Positions 17,675-34,159 of a stretch of 34,257 nt of DNA are shown one piece after another. The stretch's first letter is position 1. Every line of letters starts with the position of its first letter. The stretch lies in NCBI GenBank assembly GCA_017961175.1, contig JAGCXV010000033.1, forward strand, positions 1 to 34,257, given 5' to 3'. A program made the position numbers and the translations under genes. This DNA is from Bacteroidales bacterium. GTDB lineage: Bacteria; Bacteroidota; Bacteroidia; Bacteroidales; UBA932. The notes under the pieces are model-generated. The model saw only the letters and a list, made by a program, of their open reading frames with translations. It had not been told where the DNA came from and ran no database searches.

Positions 17675-18343
17675 ATGCACAACGAGATGCTGGAAGTTTT
17701 CCTTAAGGGACTGATAGTGGGCGTGGGGGCGTCGATTCCTCTTGGCCCGGTGGGGGTCCTGTGTATCCAGAAGACCATAAGTAAAGGCCGTTTCGCCGGC
17801 TTTTTCACAGGTCTGGGAGCTTCCATCTCGGATACCTTCTATTCCGCGCTGTCCCTTCTTGGACTTTTCATGGTAGACAGTTTCCTGGACCAGTACAAGG
17901 CCTGGGTGCTCCTTTTCGGCGGTATTGTAATAGCGTTTATCGGAATCAGGGTATACCGCAGCAATCCGGTCAAGCAGATCAAGCAGAAGCAGGGGAACGG
18001 AAGCAGGATCAAGGATATGCTGGAATCCCTTGCCATAACCATAACGAATCCGGGATCTATTTTCCTTATTTTCGCGATGATGGCCGCCGTCAGGCTGGAT
18101 GTTTCCGCCTATACGCTGGAAACGGCTCCTGTGGCAGTCAGGATCCTTCTGCTTGCGATTTTCCTTGGAACAGCTCTCTGGTGGTTCTCCCTGACTTCCC
18201 TTGTCAGCATTTTCCGCAAGAAATTCCGCCTGAAGCAACTTATCGTGATAAACAGGATTTCCGGAATAGTTATTATTCTGCTGGGCATACTGAGTTTTGG
18301 AGAAGGACTCTTCAAACTGATTCTTCAGTATGTGATAAAGTAG
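17675..18343 (+). CDS. LysE-family amino-acid exporter
   Basis: A 222-residue inner-membrane protein with about six hydrophobic segments. The first carries the family signature GVGASIPLGPVGVLCIQ, followed by ISKGRFAGFFTGLGASISDTFYS. A later ITITNPGSIFLIF segment matches the conserved second half. LysE/RhtB proteins export amino acids such as lysine, arginine, threonine or homoserine; the substrate here is unknown. ATG at 17675 is preferred to a TTG at 17663, which would lie inside the promoter box. The stop codon abuts the 3' end of the convergent tmRNA gene with no gap. Confidence 0.85.
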   Translation: MHNEMLEVFLKGLIVGVGASIPLGPVGVLCIQKTISKGRFAGFFTGLGASISDTFYSALSLLGLFMVDSFLDQYKAWVLLFGGIVIAFIGIRVYRSNPVKQIKQKQGNGSRIKDMLESLAITITNPGSIFLIFAMMAAVRLDVSAYTLETAPVAVRILLLAIFLGTALWWFSLTSLVSIFRKKFRLKQLIVINRISGIVIILLGILSFGEGLFKLILQYVIK

Positions 18344-18742
18344 TGGAGGTGAGCGGAGTCGAACCGCTGTCCAATCAGGCCGCCAATCGGATTTCTACGT
18401 GCGTATCTCCGGTTTGATTTTCGTCCATGGCCCCGCCCCGGAGCGGGCAAGCCCAAAGCTTATCCTTTAAAACTTAGGAGGATTTAAAGGAGTCGTCCTC
18501 CGCATTCTTCTTTAAATGATACCCCGTATGCCAGATCCAAGAAGACGGAAAACCTGGCGGGATACTCGTCCGAAGCACCTTGTGCCTCAAGGATTAAGCG
18601 CCGTCAGCTTAGCTGATTACGCAGCGAGTGCATAATTGTTGTTGCCAATTAATGGCTGAAAGTCATAGATTAACGAGCGCGGCTCCCAACGCTCGGCACG
18701 CACCCCGACCAACTGATCTGATGTCAAAACCAGAACACCCCC
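18344..18742 (-). ncRNA. ssrA: tmRNA (transfer-messenger RNA)
   Basis: A minus-strand gene of about 399 nt that rescues stalled ribosomes by trans-translation. The 3' end carries the tRNA-like T arm (CGGTTCGACTCCG) and acceptor strand CACCTCC plus discriminator A. The 5' end GGGGGTG pairs with the acceptor strand, followed by the TTCTGGTTTTGACA-type D-region. The internal reading frame encodes a short degradation tag (18617-18646). The 3' CCA is not encoded (the genomic bases are CTA), so it must be added by the CCA enzyme. A TAnnTTTG box lies 15 bp upstream of the mature 5' end, so a short precursor is trimmed, presumably by RNase P. The next gene upstream on the same strand ends at 18770. 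Confidence 0.95.
18617..18646 (-). other. tmRNA tag-peptide reading frame (GNNNYALAA, stop)
   Basis: Within the tmRNA, minus-strand codons GGC AAC AAC AAT TAT GCA CTC GCT GCG TAA give the tag. The resume codon is taken as GGC, but a start one codon away cannot be excluded. The YALAA end is the signal recognised by ClpXP-type proteases and is shared with known Bacteroidota tags. Confidence 0.85.
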
Positions 18743-29645: not shown

Positions 29646-30968
29646 CTAAGGTTGATGCGGCCTCCGGAAGATGGAGTGCCGCATCTTCTTTTCTATCTCT
29701 TTTAGAGCAAGATCTCCGATACTGCCTATGTGGGTATGGTTCAGAGATTTAACATTCATCCTACTCTCGGGGAATTCAAACTTTTTCTCAGCGACTTCTT
29801 TTGCCACTTCCTTATATGCCTGGCGGAAAGGCTTGCCGGCAAGGACCTTTTGGTTAACTTCCTCTACGGTGAAGATCGGAGCATAGAGAGGGTTATTGAA
29901 GATATCCTTGCTGACCTTGATGTTTTCAATCATAATTGCAGCCATCTGAAGGCAGTCGTGAGTCTTTTCCAGAGCCGGCATGATGATCTCCTTAAGCAGC
30001 TGGAAATCCCTATGATAGCCGTGAGGAAGATTTGTGGTGAGCATAGCGGTCTGGCCGTAGCAGGATGAAATCAGGTTGCAGTTTCCCCTTATCATTTCCC
30101 ATACGTCAGGATTCTTCTTGTGAGGCATTATGCTGCTTCCGGTCGTAAGGCTGTCAGGAAAACTTATGAAAGAGAAATTCGGGCAGGAGAACAGGCAGCA
30201 GTCCTGCGCGAGCTTGTTGAGGGTGCCGGCAATCTGGCCGATGGCAGCGGCTATGGCCCTCTCAGTTTTGCCACGCCCCATTTGTGCGGCTATGGAGTTG
30301 AAACTCAGGGTGCTGAATCCAAGCAGCTTTGTGGTCAGCTTTCTGTCCAGAGGAAATGAATTGCCATAACCGGCTGCACTTCCAAGAGGATTCTGGTCTG
30401 CAATCTTGTATGCCGCTCCAAGCATAACCATATCGTCCGCAAGGCTTTCCGCATAAGCTCCAAGCCATAGGCCGAAAGAAGACGGCATTGCGGTCTGGAA
30501 ATGGGTGTATCCCGGCATAAGGACATCCTTGTGCTTTCTGCTTTGCTTGACAAGAATCTTGAAAAGATGAAGGATCTCGTCCCTTATCTTCAGACATTCG
30601 TCCTTGAAGAAAAGTTTCAGGTCCACTGCCACCTGGTCGTTGCGGCTTCTTCCGGAATGGATCTTCGTGCCGATGTCTCCAAGTCTTTCTGTAAGAATCA
30701 GTTCTACCTGTGAGTGGATGTCTTCCACGCCTTCTTCCAGACAGAATTTTCCCTTTTCTACTTCAAAGAGAATCTTGTCCAGCGCATCGCTGAGTTTAGA
30801 ATGCTCTTTGGAAGTGAGCAATCCGATTTTCTCCAGCATCGCAATGTGGGCTTTGCTTCCTATGATGTCGTATTTTGCAAGTTTGAGGTCCAGTTCCCTG
30901 TCTTTTCCAACGGTGAACTTTTCCGCTTTTTCTTCAAATTTGCCGCCTTTGTCCCAAAGTGTAGCCAT
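29646..30968 (-). CDS. argH: argininosuccinate lyase
   Basis: A 440-residue cytoplasmic enzyme that splits argininosuccinate into arginine and fumarate, the last step of arginine synthesis. Family segments: KYDIIGSKAHIAMLEKIGLL, EDIHSQVE, HSGRSRNDQVAVDLKLF, GYTHFQTAMPSSFGLW and the fumarase/lyase signature GSSIMPHKKNPD near residue 277, which carries the catalytic serine. The length is normal. The start overlaps the stop of the M20 deacetylase gene by one base (TAATG). It is last in the four-gene arginine operon and converges with the RNase G gene. Confidence 0.96.
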   Translation of the reverse strand: MATLWDKGGKFEEKAEKFTVGKDRELDLKLAKYDIIGSKAHIAMLEKIGLLTSKEHSKLSDALDKILFEVEKGKFCLEEGVEDIHSQVELILTERLGDIGTKIHSGRSRNDQVAVDLKLFFKDECLKIRDEILHLFKILVKQSRKHKDVLMPGYTHFQTAMPSSFGLWLGAYAESLADDMVMLGAAYKIADQNPLGSAAGYGNSFPLDRKLTTKLLGFSTLSFNSIAAQMGRGKTERAIAAAIGQIAGTLNKLAQDCCLFSCPNFSFISFPDSLTTGSSIMPHKKNPDVWEMIRGNCNLISSCYGQTAMLTTNLPHGYHRDFQLLKEIIMPALEKTHDCLQMAAIMIENIKVSKDIFNNPLYAPIFTVEEVNQKVLAGKPFRQAYKEVAKEVAEKKFEFPESRMNVKSLNHTHIGSIGDLALKEIEKKMRHSIFRRPHQP

Positions 30969-32056
30969 TATAGTTTTGTTTGCAAGTGTTTTATAATCAG
31001 TGAGTATCCTTTAATTCCCCCGGCGATTTCGCCTTTGGTGATGTATTCGCCGGCCTTATGGCTGCGGGAGCTTTCTCCAGGGCCGATCTTTATTGCCGGA
31101 ACAGTAAGGCGTGCCCAGTCGGAAGAAGTAGGGGAGACATAAGTCTCGATGCCAAGTTCCTGCACCGTTTCCCAAAGAGGACTGCCGGCGGGAGTCACAC
31201 AGCACCTGTGCTTGAGGTTCCGGGCCTTGAGGCTGCATGAGGTTTTAACGGATAGTATCCTTAGGATTTCCTCCGGAGTGTACTTTTCGTTGAACCTTAT
31301 GTCCACTACAAAGGTGCAGGTGTCCGGGACAATGTTGTGGGCTGAGCCTGCATTTATCTGAGTCACCGCAAGATGCGTCGGACCTGTCACATCAGAGTTC
31401 CTTCTGAATTTGAACTTCCGCAAGGTTTCTATGTCCTTAACTGCATTGTAGATCGCGTTGTCCTGTTGAAGGTGGGCAGCGTGGGAACGGGTACCCTTTG
31501 AGGTTGCATCCAGAACCAGAAGGCCTTTCTCCCCGACAGCCGCTTTCATTCCGGTAGGCTCTCCAACCAGAGCTAAATCAGGCATCGGGATAACTTTTTG
31601 TTTCTTAATGTATTCCAGCACCAAAGGAAGACCGTTTGCTCCACCGTTTTCCTCTTCTGCGGTAAGTGCCAGCAGAAGGTTAAGTTTGCCTTTTGCGTGG
31701 CTGAGGAAAGCCTCCAGCATGCAGACAGCGGATGCTCCGTCATCGTTGGTTCCCAGGCCGTACAGCTTTCCGGCTTTCCACGCAGGAGATGGAATGGACC
31801 CCTCTGACGGTTTAACAGTGTCCATATGGGCGCACATCAGCAAGGTTTTCTTGCTTTCTGCTGGAGAATAGAGGATGATATTGTTCTTGATGCCGGCCAT
31901 TATGACTTTGTCCTCTAGCCCTTCATCTTTCAGATAAGATAGGATCTTCTTCCTCAGAAAAGCGCTCCTTGCCTCCTCCTGCGAGGAAGGGGCGGGGATG
32001 GAAACCATTTCTTCCAATAGGGCTATTGCCCTGCTGTCCAGCTTTTTGCTTTTCAT
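30968..32056 (-). CDS. M20 metallopeptidase-family deacylase, ArgE-like (N-acyl-ornithine/citrulline deacylase)
   Basis: A 362-residue M20 zinc hydrolase. The metal and catalytic residues are visible: H77-x-D79 in CAHMDTV, bridging D105 in GTNDDGAS, and E134-E135 in LTAEEENGG. The dimerisation part follows (KGTRSHAAHLQQDNAIYNAVKDI). It lies between argG and argH with 4-bp and 1-bp overlaps, so an arginine-pathway role is secure by context. In Bacteroides the pathway runs through N-succinyl-ornithine and N-succinyl-citrulline, so the substrate may be N-succinyl- or N-acetyl-citrulline rather than acetylornithine. Sequence alone does not settle which. I leave the symbol empty for that reason. 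Confidence 0.85.
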   Translation of the reverse strand: MKSKKLDSRAIALLEEMVSIPAPSSQEEARSAFLRKKILSYLKDEGLEDKVIMAGIKNNIILYSPAESKKTLLMCAHMDTVKPSEGSIPSPAWKAGKLYGLGTNDDGASAVCMLEAFLSHAKGKLNLLLALTAEEENGGANGLPLVLEYIKKQKVIPMPDLALVGEPTGMKAAVGEKGLLVLDATSKGTRSHAAHLQQDNAIYNAVKDIETLRKFKFRRNSDVTGPTHLAVTQINAGSAHNIVPDTCTFVVDIRFNEKYTPEEILRILSVKTSCSLKARNLKHRCCVTPAGSPLWETVQELGIETYVSPTSSDWARLTVPAIKIGPGESSRSHKAGEYITKGEIAGGIKGYSLIIKHLQTKL

Positions 32057-33246
32057 TTGATATTTTTGTCGCTGAGGCTGTAATAAATCTTGAGAGGATT
32101 GGCAAGCACCCTTGTGAATCCTATGACATCCTGAGCGGTGAAAGACTTGTTGTCTTCTCCGTATGCGCCGAATTTGGAATCCATAAGGTCATATGGGCTA
32201 TTGCATCCCAATGCCTGGAAACAGTATGGCCTGAGTTTTACGAATACGGTTCCGGTCACGTTCTTCTGTGTGCTTTCCAGGAAGGCTTCCATATCCCTTG
32301 CCGTTGGGTCCAGATACTGGGCTTCGTGCATCAGTTGGCCGTAATATGCTGATATATGGTCTTTCCAGTTAAGCTGTCCTTTTACCAGAACGTGCTTTTC
32401 CAGAAGATGGTGGGCCTTGATTATTATCAGCGGAGCGGCAGCTTCAAAACCTACTCTTCCCTTGATTCCGATGATTGTGTCTCCTGTGTGGATATCCCTT
32501 CCGATACCATAGTCGTTTGCAATGGAGGCAATCTTGCGGATTGATTCTACCGGACTCATCTTCACACCGTCTACGCCAACAGGCTCTCCTTTAAGGAAAT
32601 CTATGCTTAGAATCTTTTCTTTCTTTTCCTTAACATGGTGAGGGTAAGCTTCTTCCGGAAGATATCCGTCTGAATGAAGAGTCTCCTGCCCGCCAATGCT
32701 TGTTCCCCAGATTCCCTGGTTTATCGAGTATTTACTTTTCTTCCAAGAGAAATTGAATCCCTTGCTTTTCAGATAGTCTATCTCGAACTTTCTCTGGAAA
32801 TTGTTGTCCCTGACAGGGGCAATGATCTTGATTTCAGGTGCAAGCACGTCGAAAATCAAATCGAAGCGTACCTGGTCGTTACCGGCACCGGTGCTCCCGT
32901 GGGCCACGAAGCCGGCCTTTTTCTTTTTCGCGATCCTCAGGACCTCCAGTCCCTGGAACACCCTCTCGCTGCTTACGCTGAGCGGATAGGTGGCGTTTTT
33001 GAGGACGTTTCCGAAAATCAGGTATTTTATACCTTTATTATAATAGTCTTCTACGATGTTGGAGCAGGTATGTGTTTTGGCGCCCAGCTCCAGGGCTCTT
33101 TTCCGGATTTCCTCTTCCTCCTCCGGGGAGAAGCCACCGGTGTTTACGAATACGGTATGAACCTCATAACCTTGTTCCTTGAGGTATGGGACGCAGAAAG
33201 ACGTGTCCAGGCCTCCGCTGAATGCCAGTACGATTTTCTTTTTCAT
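32053..33246 (-). CDS. argG: argininosuccinate synthase
   Basis: A 397-residue cytoplasmic enzyme that joins citrulline and aspartate with ATP. The N-type ATP pyrophosphatase loop is SGGLDTSFC (residues 10-18). HGSTGAGNDQVRFD and later GIWGTSIGGQE and YEVHTVFVNTGG segments fit the family. Its start overlaps the GNAT stop and its stop overlaps the next start (ATGA in each case), the tight packing of a co-translated operon. Length is normal for the family. Confidence 0.96.
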   Translation of the reverse strand: MKKKIVLAFSGGLDTSFCVPYLKEQGYEVHTVFVNTGGFSPEEEEEIRKRALELGAKTHTCSNIVEDYYNKGIKYLIFGNVLKNATYPLSVSSERVFQGLEVLRIAKKKKAGFVAHGSTGAGNDQVRFDLIFDVLAPEIKIIAPVRDNNFQRKFEIDYLKSKGFNFSWKKSKYSINQGIWGTSIGGQETLHSDGYLPEEAYPHHVKEKKEKILSIDFLKGEPVGVDGVKMSPVESIRKIASIANDYGIGRDIHTGDTIIGIKGRVGFEAAAPLIIIKAHHLLEKHVLVKGQLNWKDHISAYYGQLMHEAQYLDPTARDMEAFLESTQKNVTGTVFVKLRPYCFQALGCNSPYDLMDSKFGAYGEDNKSFTAQDVIGFTRVLANPLKIYYSLSDKNIK

Positions 33247-33806
33247 ATTTCCTGTTGTTTTTGTTGTTTCTTTTCATCTGCCGGATCATATAGCAAGGCT
33301 GTGCAAAGGCATATCTTGCAGTCATTTCTCTGAAGTATGTCATAGTTCGGGCAGCCGTAGCAGCCTTCCCAGAATTCTTTTTCAGATGTCAGCTCGGAGA
33401 AGGAAACGGGCTTGAATCCCAGCTCGTTATTTATCTTCATGACAGCCAGTTGCGTGGTTATGCTGAAAATCTTTGCATATGGGTACATTTCTCTGGACAA
33501 TTCGAATATCCGCTTCTTGATCTGTCTGGCAAGACCGCTTCTGCGATAAGGCGGAGCTACGATTAAACCGGAGTTTGCCACAAACTTGGTATGGCTCCAA
33601 GTCTCTATGTATGAGAAACCTGCAATCGTTCCATCCTCGTCCAGCGCGATTATGGCCTTGTGGTTTTCCATCTTGTCCTTAATGTAATCCGGGGTTCTTA
33701 TGGCAAGCACAGTACCCCTTTCTTTTGAAGACCCTTCCATCATTTCAACGATTTTTTCCGCATACTTGAAATGGCTCTGGTCAGCTACTACAATATTGAC
33801 TTTCAT
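33243..33806 (-). CDS. GNAT-family acyltransferase heading the arginine operon, Cys-rich C-terminus
   Basis: A 187-residue cytoplasmic acyltransferase. The GNAT fold shows DEDGTIAGFSYIETW, NSGLIVAPPYRRSGLARQIKKRI (acyl-CoA loop RRSGLA, 88-93) and AVMKINNELGFKPV. The C-terminus carries C149-x2-C152-x10-C163-x2-C166-x-C168, which looks like a zinc- or cluster-binding knuckle. Genes of this type sit next to argG in other Bacteroidales, where they are candidates for the first step (N-acetyl- or N-succinyl-glutamate synthase). That assignment here is inference from context. It is the first gene of the operon. No TAnnTTTG box is seen in the 70 bp directly upstream. The nearest one is beyond the structured element at 33881-34012. 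Confidence 0.8.
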   Translation of the reverse strand: MKVNIVVADQSHFKYAEKIVEMMEGSSKERGTVLAIRTPDYIKDKMENHKAIIALDEDGTIAGFSYIETWSHTKFVANSGLIVAPPYRRSGLARQIKKRIFELSREMYPYAKIFSITTQLAVMKINNELGFKPVSFSELTSEKEFWEGCYGCPNYDILQRNDCKICLCTALLYDPADEKKQQKQQEI

Positions 33807-33855
33807 TTTTTATGTTATGTGATTGTATAATGGTCCTATGATATGAAATAGACTG

Positions 33856-33870
33856 TAATCTAACAGATTA
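33856..33870. repeat. dyad TAATCT-AAC-AGATTA, one of a pair with a shared TCTAACAGA core
   Basis: A perfect 6-bp dyad 50 bp before the GNAT start. The same 9-mer TCTAACAGA (33859-33867) recurs at 33979-33987 within another dyad (ATTCT-AAC-AGAAT, 33977-33989), exactly 120 bp away. The pair brackets the long hairpin and may be operator sites or transcript stems. Confidence 0.5.
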
Positions 33871-33880
33871 TAGCTATATG

Positions 33881-34012
33881 AAAAATTGAGCGCAATTGCT
33901 CGGATAGAAAGCACCTCTCGCAGGACACTGGAATCAGTGACCTTGGCGAGGTGCTCAAGATCGGACTCTTAGAACAATTCTAACAGAATGAAATATGAAA
34001 ATTTTTTCTGTC
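33881..34012 (-). ncRNA. structured RNA element upstream of the arginine operon: 6S-like RNA or attenuator leader
   Basis: Read on the minus strand, an outer stem (AATTGTTC with GAGCAATT, plus coordinates 33972-33979 and 33894-33901, one G-U) encloses an asymmetric internal loop and a 44-nt hairpin without bulges (33911-33954: 7 outer pairs, a few mismatches, 5 inner pairs, 4-nt loop). It ends in GAGC-AATTGC-GCTC followed by AATTTTT (33901-33881), a weak terminator. The G-U pair in the outer stem would be a C-A mismatch on the other strand, so the minus strand is favoured. The outer stem and the terminator use the same GAGC, so they exclude each other. Closing stem, central bubble and apical stem recall 6S RNA. 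The position recalls an attenuator. The 5' end is estimated from the -7 box. Confidence 0.5.
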
Positions 34013-34018
34013 ACGATG

Positions 34019-34026
34019 CAAAAGTA
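34019..34026 (-). promoter_or_regulatory. -7 box for the structured RNA / arginine operon
   Basis: The minus strand reads TACTTTTG, a perfect TAnnTTTG. A clear TTTG at the -33 distance is not present. It is the nearest such box upstream of the GNAT gene. Confidence 0.55.
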
Positions 34027-34128
34027 TAAAAATATCTTTTCAATGCACTATACTGTGGATTCTTTTTGCCGAAAAAGTGTAAGTTTTACCGATAAATGAA
34101 ATTTTTTGGAAAATTTTTTGCAAAAAGA

Positions 34129-34159
34129 TTTGGTGGTATGAAAAAAGTGTTTACCTTTG
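34129..34159 (+). promoter_or_regulatory. strong promoter of rRNA-operon type
   Basis: TTTG (34129-34132), 19 bp and TACCTTTG (34152-34159) match the Bacteroidota primary promoter. The context TTTGGTGGT ... TTACCTTTGCAGCCCG, preceded by A/T-rich runs that could act as an UP element, resembles promoters in front of rRNA operons in this phylum. No coding frame of note follows before the window ends. Confidence 0.7.

Follow-up and report, generated by a model that had tools for sequence, protein, structure and literature searches.

Ribosome-mediated attenuators of the trp and his type combine a short open reading frame (ORF), rich in codons for the amino acid that the operon makes, with a downstream hairpin and a biosynthetic operon. 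Other translated leaders are the Cys-rich upstream ORFs of mycobacteria, some of which are proven leaderless attenuators, and orf34 of speF in Salmonella, which is also named speFL. The mycobacterial ORFs have residues of the relevant amino acid clustered at their C-terminus and have been proposed to act by attenuation, in a group where leaderless transcripts are reported to be common (PMC4633059). The Arg codons of orf34 sense arginine via ribosome pausing, and the accessible part of the report describes control of polyamine synthesis through Rho, RNase G and the ribosome-binding site (RBS), not of an arginine biosynthesis operon (PMC6386406). In S. aureus, ribosomes short of arginine pause at rare Arg codons close to the end of the tiny ORF rbfL; as described in the accessible text, this ORF has 8 residues, is led by a Shine-Dalgarno sequence, blocks translation of a biofilm regulator and represses under limitation (PMC13009471).

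For Bacteroidota, leader-peptide attenuation has been suggested before amino acid operons of F. psychrophilum, in a paper whose main text, as far as accessible, names arginine once and not concerning leaders (PMC9723704). Small ORFs in long 5' UTRs of B. thetaiotaomicron have likewise been likened to attenuators (PMC7366714, accessible part), and terms for leaders and attenuation are absent from the text of PMC10994844. A search of open-licence PubMed Central found no arginine leader peptide in Bacteroidota or for arginine biosynthesis, which is no proof of absence, as subscription papers and supplements lay mostly beyond its reach.

Here, we analyze a minus-strand stretch of 146 nt (33881-34026) that forms a structured leader upstream of the genes GNAT-argG-deacylase-argH in a Bacteroidales bacterium, probably a rumen dweller. 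It lies in a window of 34,257 nt, by which we mean the whole stretch of DNA that was analyzed. The region works like a ribosome-mediated attenuator and most probably is one. Like the trp/his-type systems it has a short ORF with codons for the product amino acid, a hairpin behind it and a biosynthetic operon; unlike them it concerns arginine, has its start codon at the predicted transcription start, contains a fixed GUC-CGA codon pair and occurs where the repressor ArgR is missing. From the mycobacterial ORFs it differs in phylum and in amino acid.

A leader ORF upstream of the arginine operon

The operon behind the leader makes arginine, both argG and argH being recognized above the cut-offs of their families (Table 1). 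An earlier sequence-only reading of this region had noted the promoter box, a structured RNA and competing hairpins, but had found the leader to lack both a start codon and a run of Arg codons, and had set aside peptide-coupled attenuation. That part of the reading is wrong, because a GTG at 34012-34014 starts an ORF of 19 codons (33955-34014) that ends with the stop TGA at 33955-33957: GTG ACA GAA AAA ATT TTC ATA TTT CAT TCT GTT AGA ATT GTT CTA AGA GTC CGA TCT TGA. Three of its codons (AGA, AGA, and CGA) encode arginine, and the ORF, which is conserved in relatives, begins at the predicted transcription start.

Table 1. Features of the arginine locus in the window, in order of position.
Feature	Position	Strand	Basis
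argH, argininosuccinate lyase	29646..30968	-	TIGR00838 above cut-off
M20-family ArgE/DapE-like deacylase	30968..32056	-	Pfam PF01546 above cut-off; ArgE/DapE families below cut-offs
argG, argininosuccinate synthase	32053..33246	-	TIGR00032 above cut-off
GNAT N-acetyltransferase, gene 1 of the operon	33243..33806	-	Pfam PF00583 above cut-off; NCBIfam N-acetyltransferase matches below cut-offs
Short hairpin H3 (GAGC-AAUUGC-GCUC) with AAUUUUU, second terminator-like site	33881..33901	-	75% of cells paired, one pair double-changed
Outer stem, 8 pairs, 33972-33979 with 33894-33901 (nt 36-43:114-121 from GTG)	33894..33979	-	possible in G000
Strong hairpin H2 (33911-33954), candidate terminator, then UUUCUAU	33904..33954	-	-24.9 kcal/mol
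Candidate antiterminator P, GAUCUUG (33956-33962) with CAAGGUC (33939-33945), nt 53-59:70-76	33939..33962	-	85.7% of cells, one double change
Arginine leader peptide ORF, GTG start, MTEKIFIFHSVRIVLRVRS*, predicted leaderless	33955..34014	-	sequence reading and conservation in relatives
Hairpin H1 (UAAGA-GUCCGA-UCUUG), spans last Arg codons, possible pause hairpin	33956..33971	-	80% of cells paired, no double change
Codon pair GTC-CGA (Val17-Arg18), invariant	33961..33966	-	in-frame NTC-CGA in 53/53 leaders; GTC in 57/62 occurrences
-7 promoter box TACTTTTG (TAnnTTTG type)	34019..34026	-	read in sequence

The promoter box of the earlier reading is indeed present, and 4 nt separate it from the GTG. 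Since the TAnnTTTG box of F. psychrophilum is placed at -12 to -5 (PMC9723704, accessible part), position +1 would fall on 34014, the G of the start codon, and the transcript is predicted to be practically leaderless. The same spacing of 4 nt is found in 10 of 53 leaders from relatives, and the others would have a predicted 1-6 nt before the start codon. Leaderless mRNAs are rare in Bacteroidota: the accessible parts of two studies give 5.5% of the mRNAs studied in F. psychrophilum (PMC9723704) and about 3.7% of 5' UTRs shorter than 10 nt in B. thetaiotaomicron (PMC7366714). Shine-Dalgarno sequences are described as lacking from the phylum (PMC9723704, accessible part).

Upstream of this promoter, on the plus strand at 34152-34159, stands a further box, TACCTTTG, followed up to 34257 by an apparent rRNA operon leader that runs off the end of the contig; the window itself contains no rRNA at its right end. 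The arg promoter lies back to back with an rRNA operon in two relatives, where a bacterial SSU rRNA gene adjoins the arg leader divergently (G017, L034:2573-3561 +; G034, L053:1-886 -), and this neighborhood is the likely reason why many contigs end here.

The GNAT protein was searched in 148 related genomes, of which 90 matched at E <= 1e-20; 90 loci in 89 genomes were examined, a GNAT gene fragment (G044) being left out and one genome (G142) having two loci. A leader was called by rule where a TAnnTTTG box was followed within 0-12 nt by an ATG or GTG opening 10-40 codons with an Arg codon in the last six, no more than 320 nt from the GNAT start. By this rule, 53/90 loci and 53/89 Bacteroidales genomes have a leader, against 0.67% of 9000 shuffles of the upstream DNA, although the 53 are not 53 independent events, since they are related by descent. 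In the genus of the window the rule recognizes 32 of 35 GNAT loci, and in the rest of the family 12 of the 18 genera examined have at least one leader. The short ORF stood directly after the box in all 30 loci examined first, all of the window's genus, with ends such as RVRS, RVRL, VRR, VRRRR, RRRC, and VRK. The 53 leaders start with ATG (43) or GTG (10), 4-10 nt after the box, and encode 13-30 residues. Two loci counted as having no leader nevertheless contain ORFs that resemble one: in G067 the start codon of MYNEATLANHSRIRR lies 27 nt after the box, and in G065 a longer Arg-rich ORF ending in SRRRSRRCNSVRR precedes the GNAT gene by 224 nt.

A stricter leader pattern, which fails to pick up some known leaders (G034 and G019 among them), was searched in 12 genomes and occurred at 8 places in six of them, six of these places being arg loci. 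A loose pattern for a second arginine leader in the window's own genome (G000) gave 7 matches, fewer than the 29 of its reversed control, and the idea of such a second leader was dropped. Three loci from the genera g22 and g2 (L083 in G077, L089 in G059, and L103 in G080) share a block, AATTGACAATCCAGGTTTGTCTT, between leader and GNAT start, which is possibly a further conserved RNA or DNA element.

Structure and output of the leader

The 146 nt fold with -47.3 kcal/mol, compared to -29.3 +/- 3.4 kcal/mol for dinucleotide-shuffled sequences (z -5.3; 0/200 shuffles as good), which bears out the earlier description of a structured leader with potentially competing structures. The minimum-energy fold contains the long apical hairpin that had been described and the weak hairpin with the T-run at 33881-33901 (H3). 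The alternative hairpin TTAGAA-TTG-TTCTAA (33969-33983), which had been proposed as a competitor, can also be read in the window and is kept among close relatives in 77.8% of cells (28/500 shuffles) with one pair double-changed. The outer stem fared less well: its eight pairs are possible in G000 but are absent from the minimum-energy fold, and in relatives it is kept in 29 of 48 cells (60.4%), including the eight of G000 itself.

Structures were compared in seven close relatives (six distinct rows), for which RNAalifold yielded a consensus, while 17 leaders of the genus gave none. H2 is paired in 81% of cells, and 5 of its 15 pairs have changed on both sides, with as many double changes in 13/500 shuffles. 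Four pairs of the outer stem have also changed on both sides (13/500 shuffles), but 87/500 shuffles pair as well as the stem does. Of the structures compared, H2 is the best supported, and the outer stem is equivocal. H2 begins at the base after the leader stop codon, and the U-tract behind it is imperfect. A third element, the pairing P, would compete with both H1 and H2. H1 did not prove to be common to the 53 leaders. Downstream of H3, at 33849-33869 on the minus strand, AATCTGTTAGATTACAGTCTA resembles CATTCTGTTAGAA within the leader ORF; it is able to form a small hairpin of its own, and near relatives have similar letters there.

We consider it probable, from reading and comparing sequences, that the region exerts peptide-coupled control by arginine over GNAT-argG-deacylase-argH. 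There is good support for the leader as a sensor of arginine; its output is less secure, and termination at H2, taken alone, is favored with rather less confidence. Judging from the spacing of the box, transcription would begin on the leader start codon or no more than a few nucleotides away, where a ribosome would start the 19-codon peptide. With ample arginine it would pass the Arg codons and be released at the UGA, so that H2 could fold and transcription would end. When charged tRNA-Arg is short, it would stall at the Arg codons, chiefly at the rare CGA of GUC-CGA, two codons before the stop. The accessible part of the work on S. aureus rbfL gives a toeprint distance of +13 at Arg codons (PMC13009471), and with this value a ribosome stalled with its A site on the CGA (nt 52-54) is expected to cover the RNA to about nt 64, including nt 61-64 of the H2 stem (61-67:98-104). 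Were it to stall at Arg12 instead, nt 53-59 would remain available for pairing with nt 70-76 (P); Arg16 as the site of the stall would fit neither occlusion nor P cleanly. By occlusion or by P, H2 would be blocked, and the operon would be transcribed when arginine is short.

The alternative that survives best keeps the leader peptide and changes what the stalled or released ribosome controls: not intrinsic termination but the access of Rho, the decay of the mRNA or the translation of GNAT, as in Salmonella orf34-speF or S. aureus rbfL. We regard it as unlikely, though it deserves the most serious attention among the rivals. Terminator-like geometry is not common to all 53 leaders: over the 62 nt that follow the stop codon, z averages -1.37 and falls below -2 in only 14/53, compared to a mean of -0.54 for the next block (n=35) and -0.02 for DNA upstream of the promoter (n=52). 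A terminator hairpin abutting the stop codon as a general rule was rejected, as it occurs in 15/53 leaders (28%) and in 23.6% of shuffles. The non-uniform folding after the stop suggests that genera differ in their output or that intrinsic termination is not the output in every case, and arginine leader peptides are known that act via Rho, RNase G or occlusion of the RBS, according to the accessible parts of PMC13009471 and PMC6386406. Against this stand the strength of H2 and its compensatory changes in the window's clade, as well as a distance of at least 58 nt from leader stop to GNAT start in the 53 leaders (the start being that of the protein match, approximate in a few), which is too far for direct RBS occlusion. 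The probabilities that we attach to these readings overlap and do not add up to one, because this alternative and an arrest peptide, considered below, share the leader peptide with peptide-coupled attenuation.

The GUC-CGA codon pair and other readings of the leader

Arginine accounts for 194 of the 1054 codons in the 53 leaders and stands second from the stop in 43/53 and fourth in 35/53; this enrichment near the end is partly built in, because the rule required one Arg codon in the last six. The preference for CGA and the NTC-CGA pair were not built into the rule. CGA makes up 94/194 Arg codons in the leaders and 11/484 in 21 genes of the window. All 53 leaders contain an in-frame NTC-CGA, with 57 GTC, 4 ATC and 1 TTC among the 62 occurrences. 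The Val codon preceding Arg is GTC in 64/70 cases, compared to 3/30 for other Val codons of the leaders and 131/625 in the window genes, which implies that synonymous bases are conserved too. Elsewhere the peptide seems little constrained: among eight pairs of leaders compared, the changed codons were all non-synonymous in four pairs and all synonymous in two, and the non-synonymous changes indicate that most of the peptide sequence is unconstrained.

Slow decoding of CGA in a fixed context would explain the conservation of GTC-CGA. We infer this reason, since local folding fails to explain the conservation (the 37 nt around UCCGA show little excess, mean z -0.41 over 53 leaders) and complementary k-mers are uncommon, those tried for UCCGA occurring in at most 7/53 transcripts. 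In the his leader of Salmonella, ribosomes are reported to take longer over CGA than over CGU and CGC (PMC4046918, accessible part).

Were the peptide an arrest peptide, the nascent chain would sense free arginine, and stalling would not depend on uncharged tRNA. The C-terminal V-R, invariant in 14/14 aligned leaders of 19 residues, is what such a peptide might conserve, but the remaining sequence varies, the 53 leaders have lengths of 13-30 residues, and the bias for CGA points to the rate of decoding rather than to the residue. This makes an arrest peptide improbable.

Still less probable is a riboswitch-like leader that binds a metabolite or protein, with GUCCGA as an RNA recognition motif and no translated ORF. 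UCCGA is present in 53/53 leaders including the third base of Val, which exceeds the needs of peptide coding alone, and the leaders as a whole are structured (mean z -1.79, 20/53 below -2). A copy of the motif is nevertheless in frame in 53/53, and Arg is enriched only in the frame of the ORF (16.7% against 2.4% and 6.2% in the other two, start and stop codons counted). As a hairpin-loop motif UCCGA was rejected, as it lies in a loop in 10/53 leaders (19%), compared to about 17% by chance; the scant folding around it and the few complementary k-mers count against a recognition element as well. No Rfam riboswitch or T-box matched the window: its sole match at the gathering threshold is an ordinary tmRNA (18341-18742, minus strand, 147.5 bits), and nothing relevant matched at E <= 10 in 33781-34150.

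That a 6S RNA homologue sits here by chance, as the sequence-only reading had considered, is hardly credible, mainly because the ORF, which with its conserved Arg codons takes up the 5' half of the region in 53 genomes, is conserved and the outer stem is poorly kept; moreover, argR often takes the place of the leader in genomes without it. The shape of an outer stem, bubble and apical hairpin is possible in G000, and no other 6S RNA was detected there with RF00013 or RF01693. The suggested search with these Rfam models (6S and Bacteroidales-1) gave no match at E <= 10 in 33781-34150 and none anywhere in G000. Under stricter filters, RF01693 exceeded its cut-off in 11/148 genomes, none of them in family f1 (G000-G088), and matched weakly in G073 and G087. 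Either the 6S RNA of this family has diverged greatly or the models do not include it, and they may be insensitive here, since they found no 6S RNA in G000 and RF01693 none in the family.

ArgR and the leader among related genomes

Matches to the ArgR family TIGR01529 were found in 29/148 genomes, five of them above the curated cut-off. Within the 89 GNAT genomes, ArgR occurs in 0/53 with a leader and in 22/36 without (4 within the window's family and 18 outside), so that leader and ArgR are mutually exclusive among the genomes examined. Incomplete genomes could hide an argR, but hardly 53 times. Neither a leader by rule nor ArgR is present in 14/89, of which the window's family contributes 12 of its 69 genomes; the genera g4, g8, g9, g19 and g24 show this lack of both. 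Of the 22 genomes with ArgR, 18 have the argR match on the strand of the GNAT gene and no more than about 250 nt before it, and G147 is a genome with argR upstream of GNAT; in the remaining four of the 22 it is more than 1 kb away (G097, G124) or on another contig (G105, G142). By its position, the ArgR of Bacteroidales arg operons belongs to the same GNAT-led operon as the leader and would repress it. The two devices differ in kind, ArgR being a protein repressor and the one proposed for the window a device of RNA and peptide, and they never occur together in the 89 genomes. Most relatives in the family lack ArgR, and the leader is found where ArgR is missing.

A tree of GNAT proteins from 58 of the 89 genomes places those of the family on one side of a branch with 100/98 support, except G008 and G035, two argR carriers of the window's own genus whose GNAT proteins group among those of other families. 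This grouping suggests that their argR and GNAT genes arrived together by transfer, although the places of G008, G035, and G103 are unsure, because long branches meet there. Two further genomes with argR, G070 and G087, sit inside the leader group. The argR matches of G008 (L161, L118) and G035 (L162, L119) come in two pieces within one open frame, so that this ArgR may have diverged or may contain an insertion.

For the family as a whole, we tentatively propose a leaderless leader peptide in which GUC-CGA, fixed by selection on the nucleotides themselves for its exceptionally slow decoding, would serve as a single-pair sensor and stand in for ArgR, each having replaced the other more than once and the two not coexisting. 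This wider picture is considerably less secure than peptide-coupled control in the window itself.

If true, an arginine biosynthesis operon in Bacteroidota would be controlled by an arginine leader peptide, and a protein repressor and a translated attenuator would have been swapped at one locus, in a way that is visible across many related genomes. With its fixed GUC-CGA, the leader would also lend itself to a natural test of how codon pairs affect the speed of the ribosome. The locus further suggests that attenuation may work via leaderless initiation in a phylum that, according to the accessible parts of the two transcript studies, does without Shine-Dalgarno sequences and rarely makes leaderless mRNAs (PMC9723704, PMC7366714).
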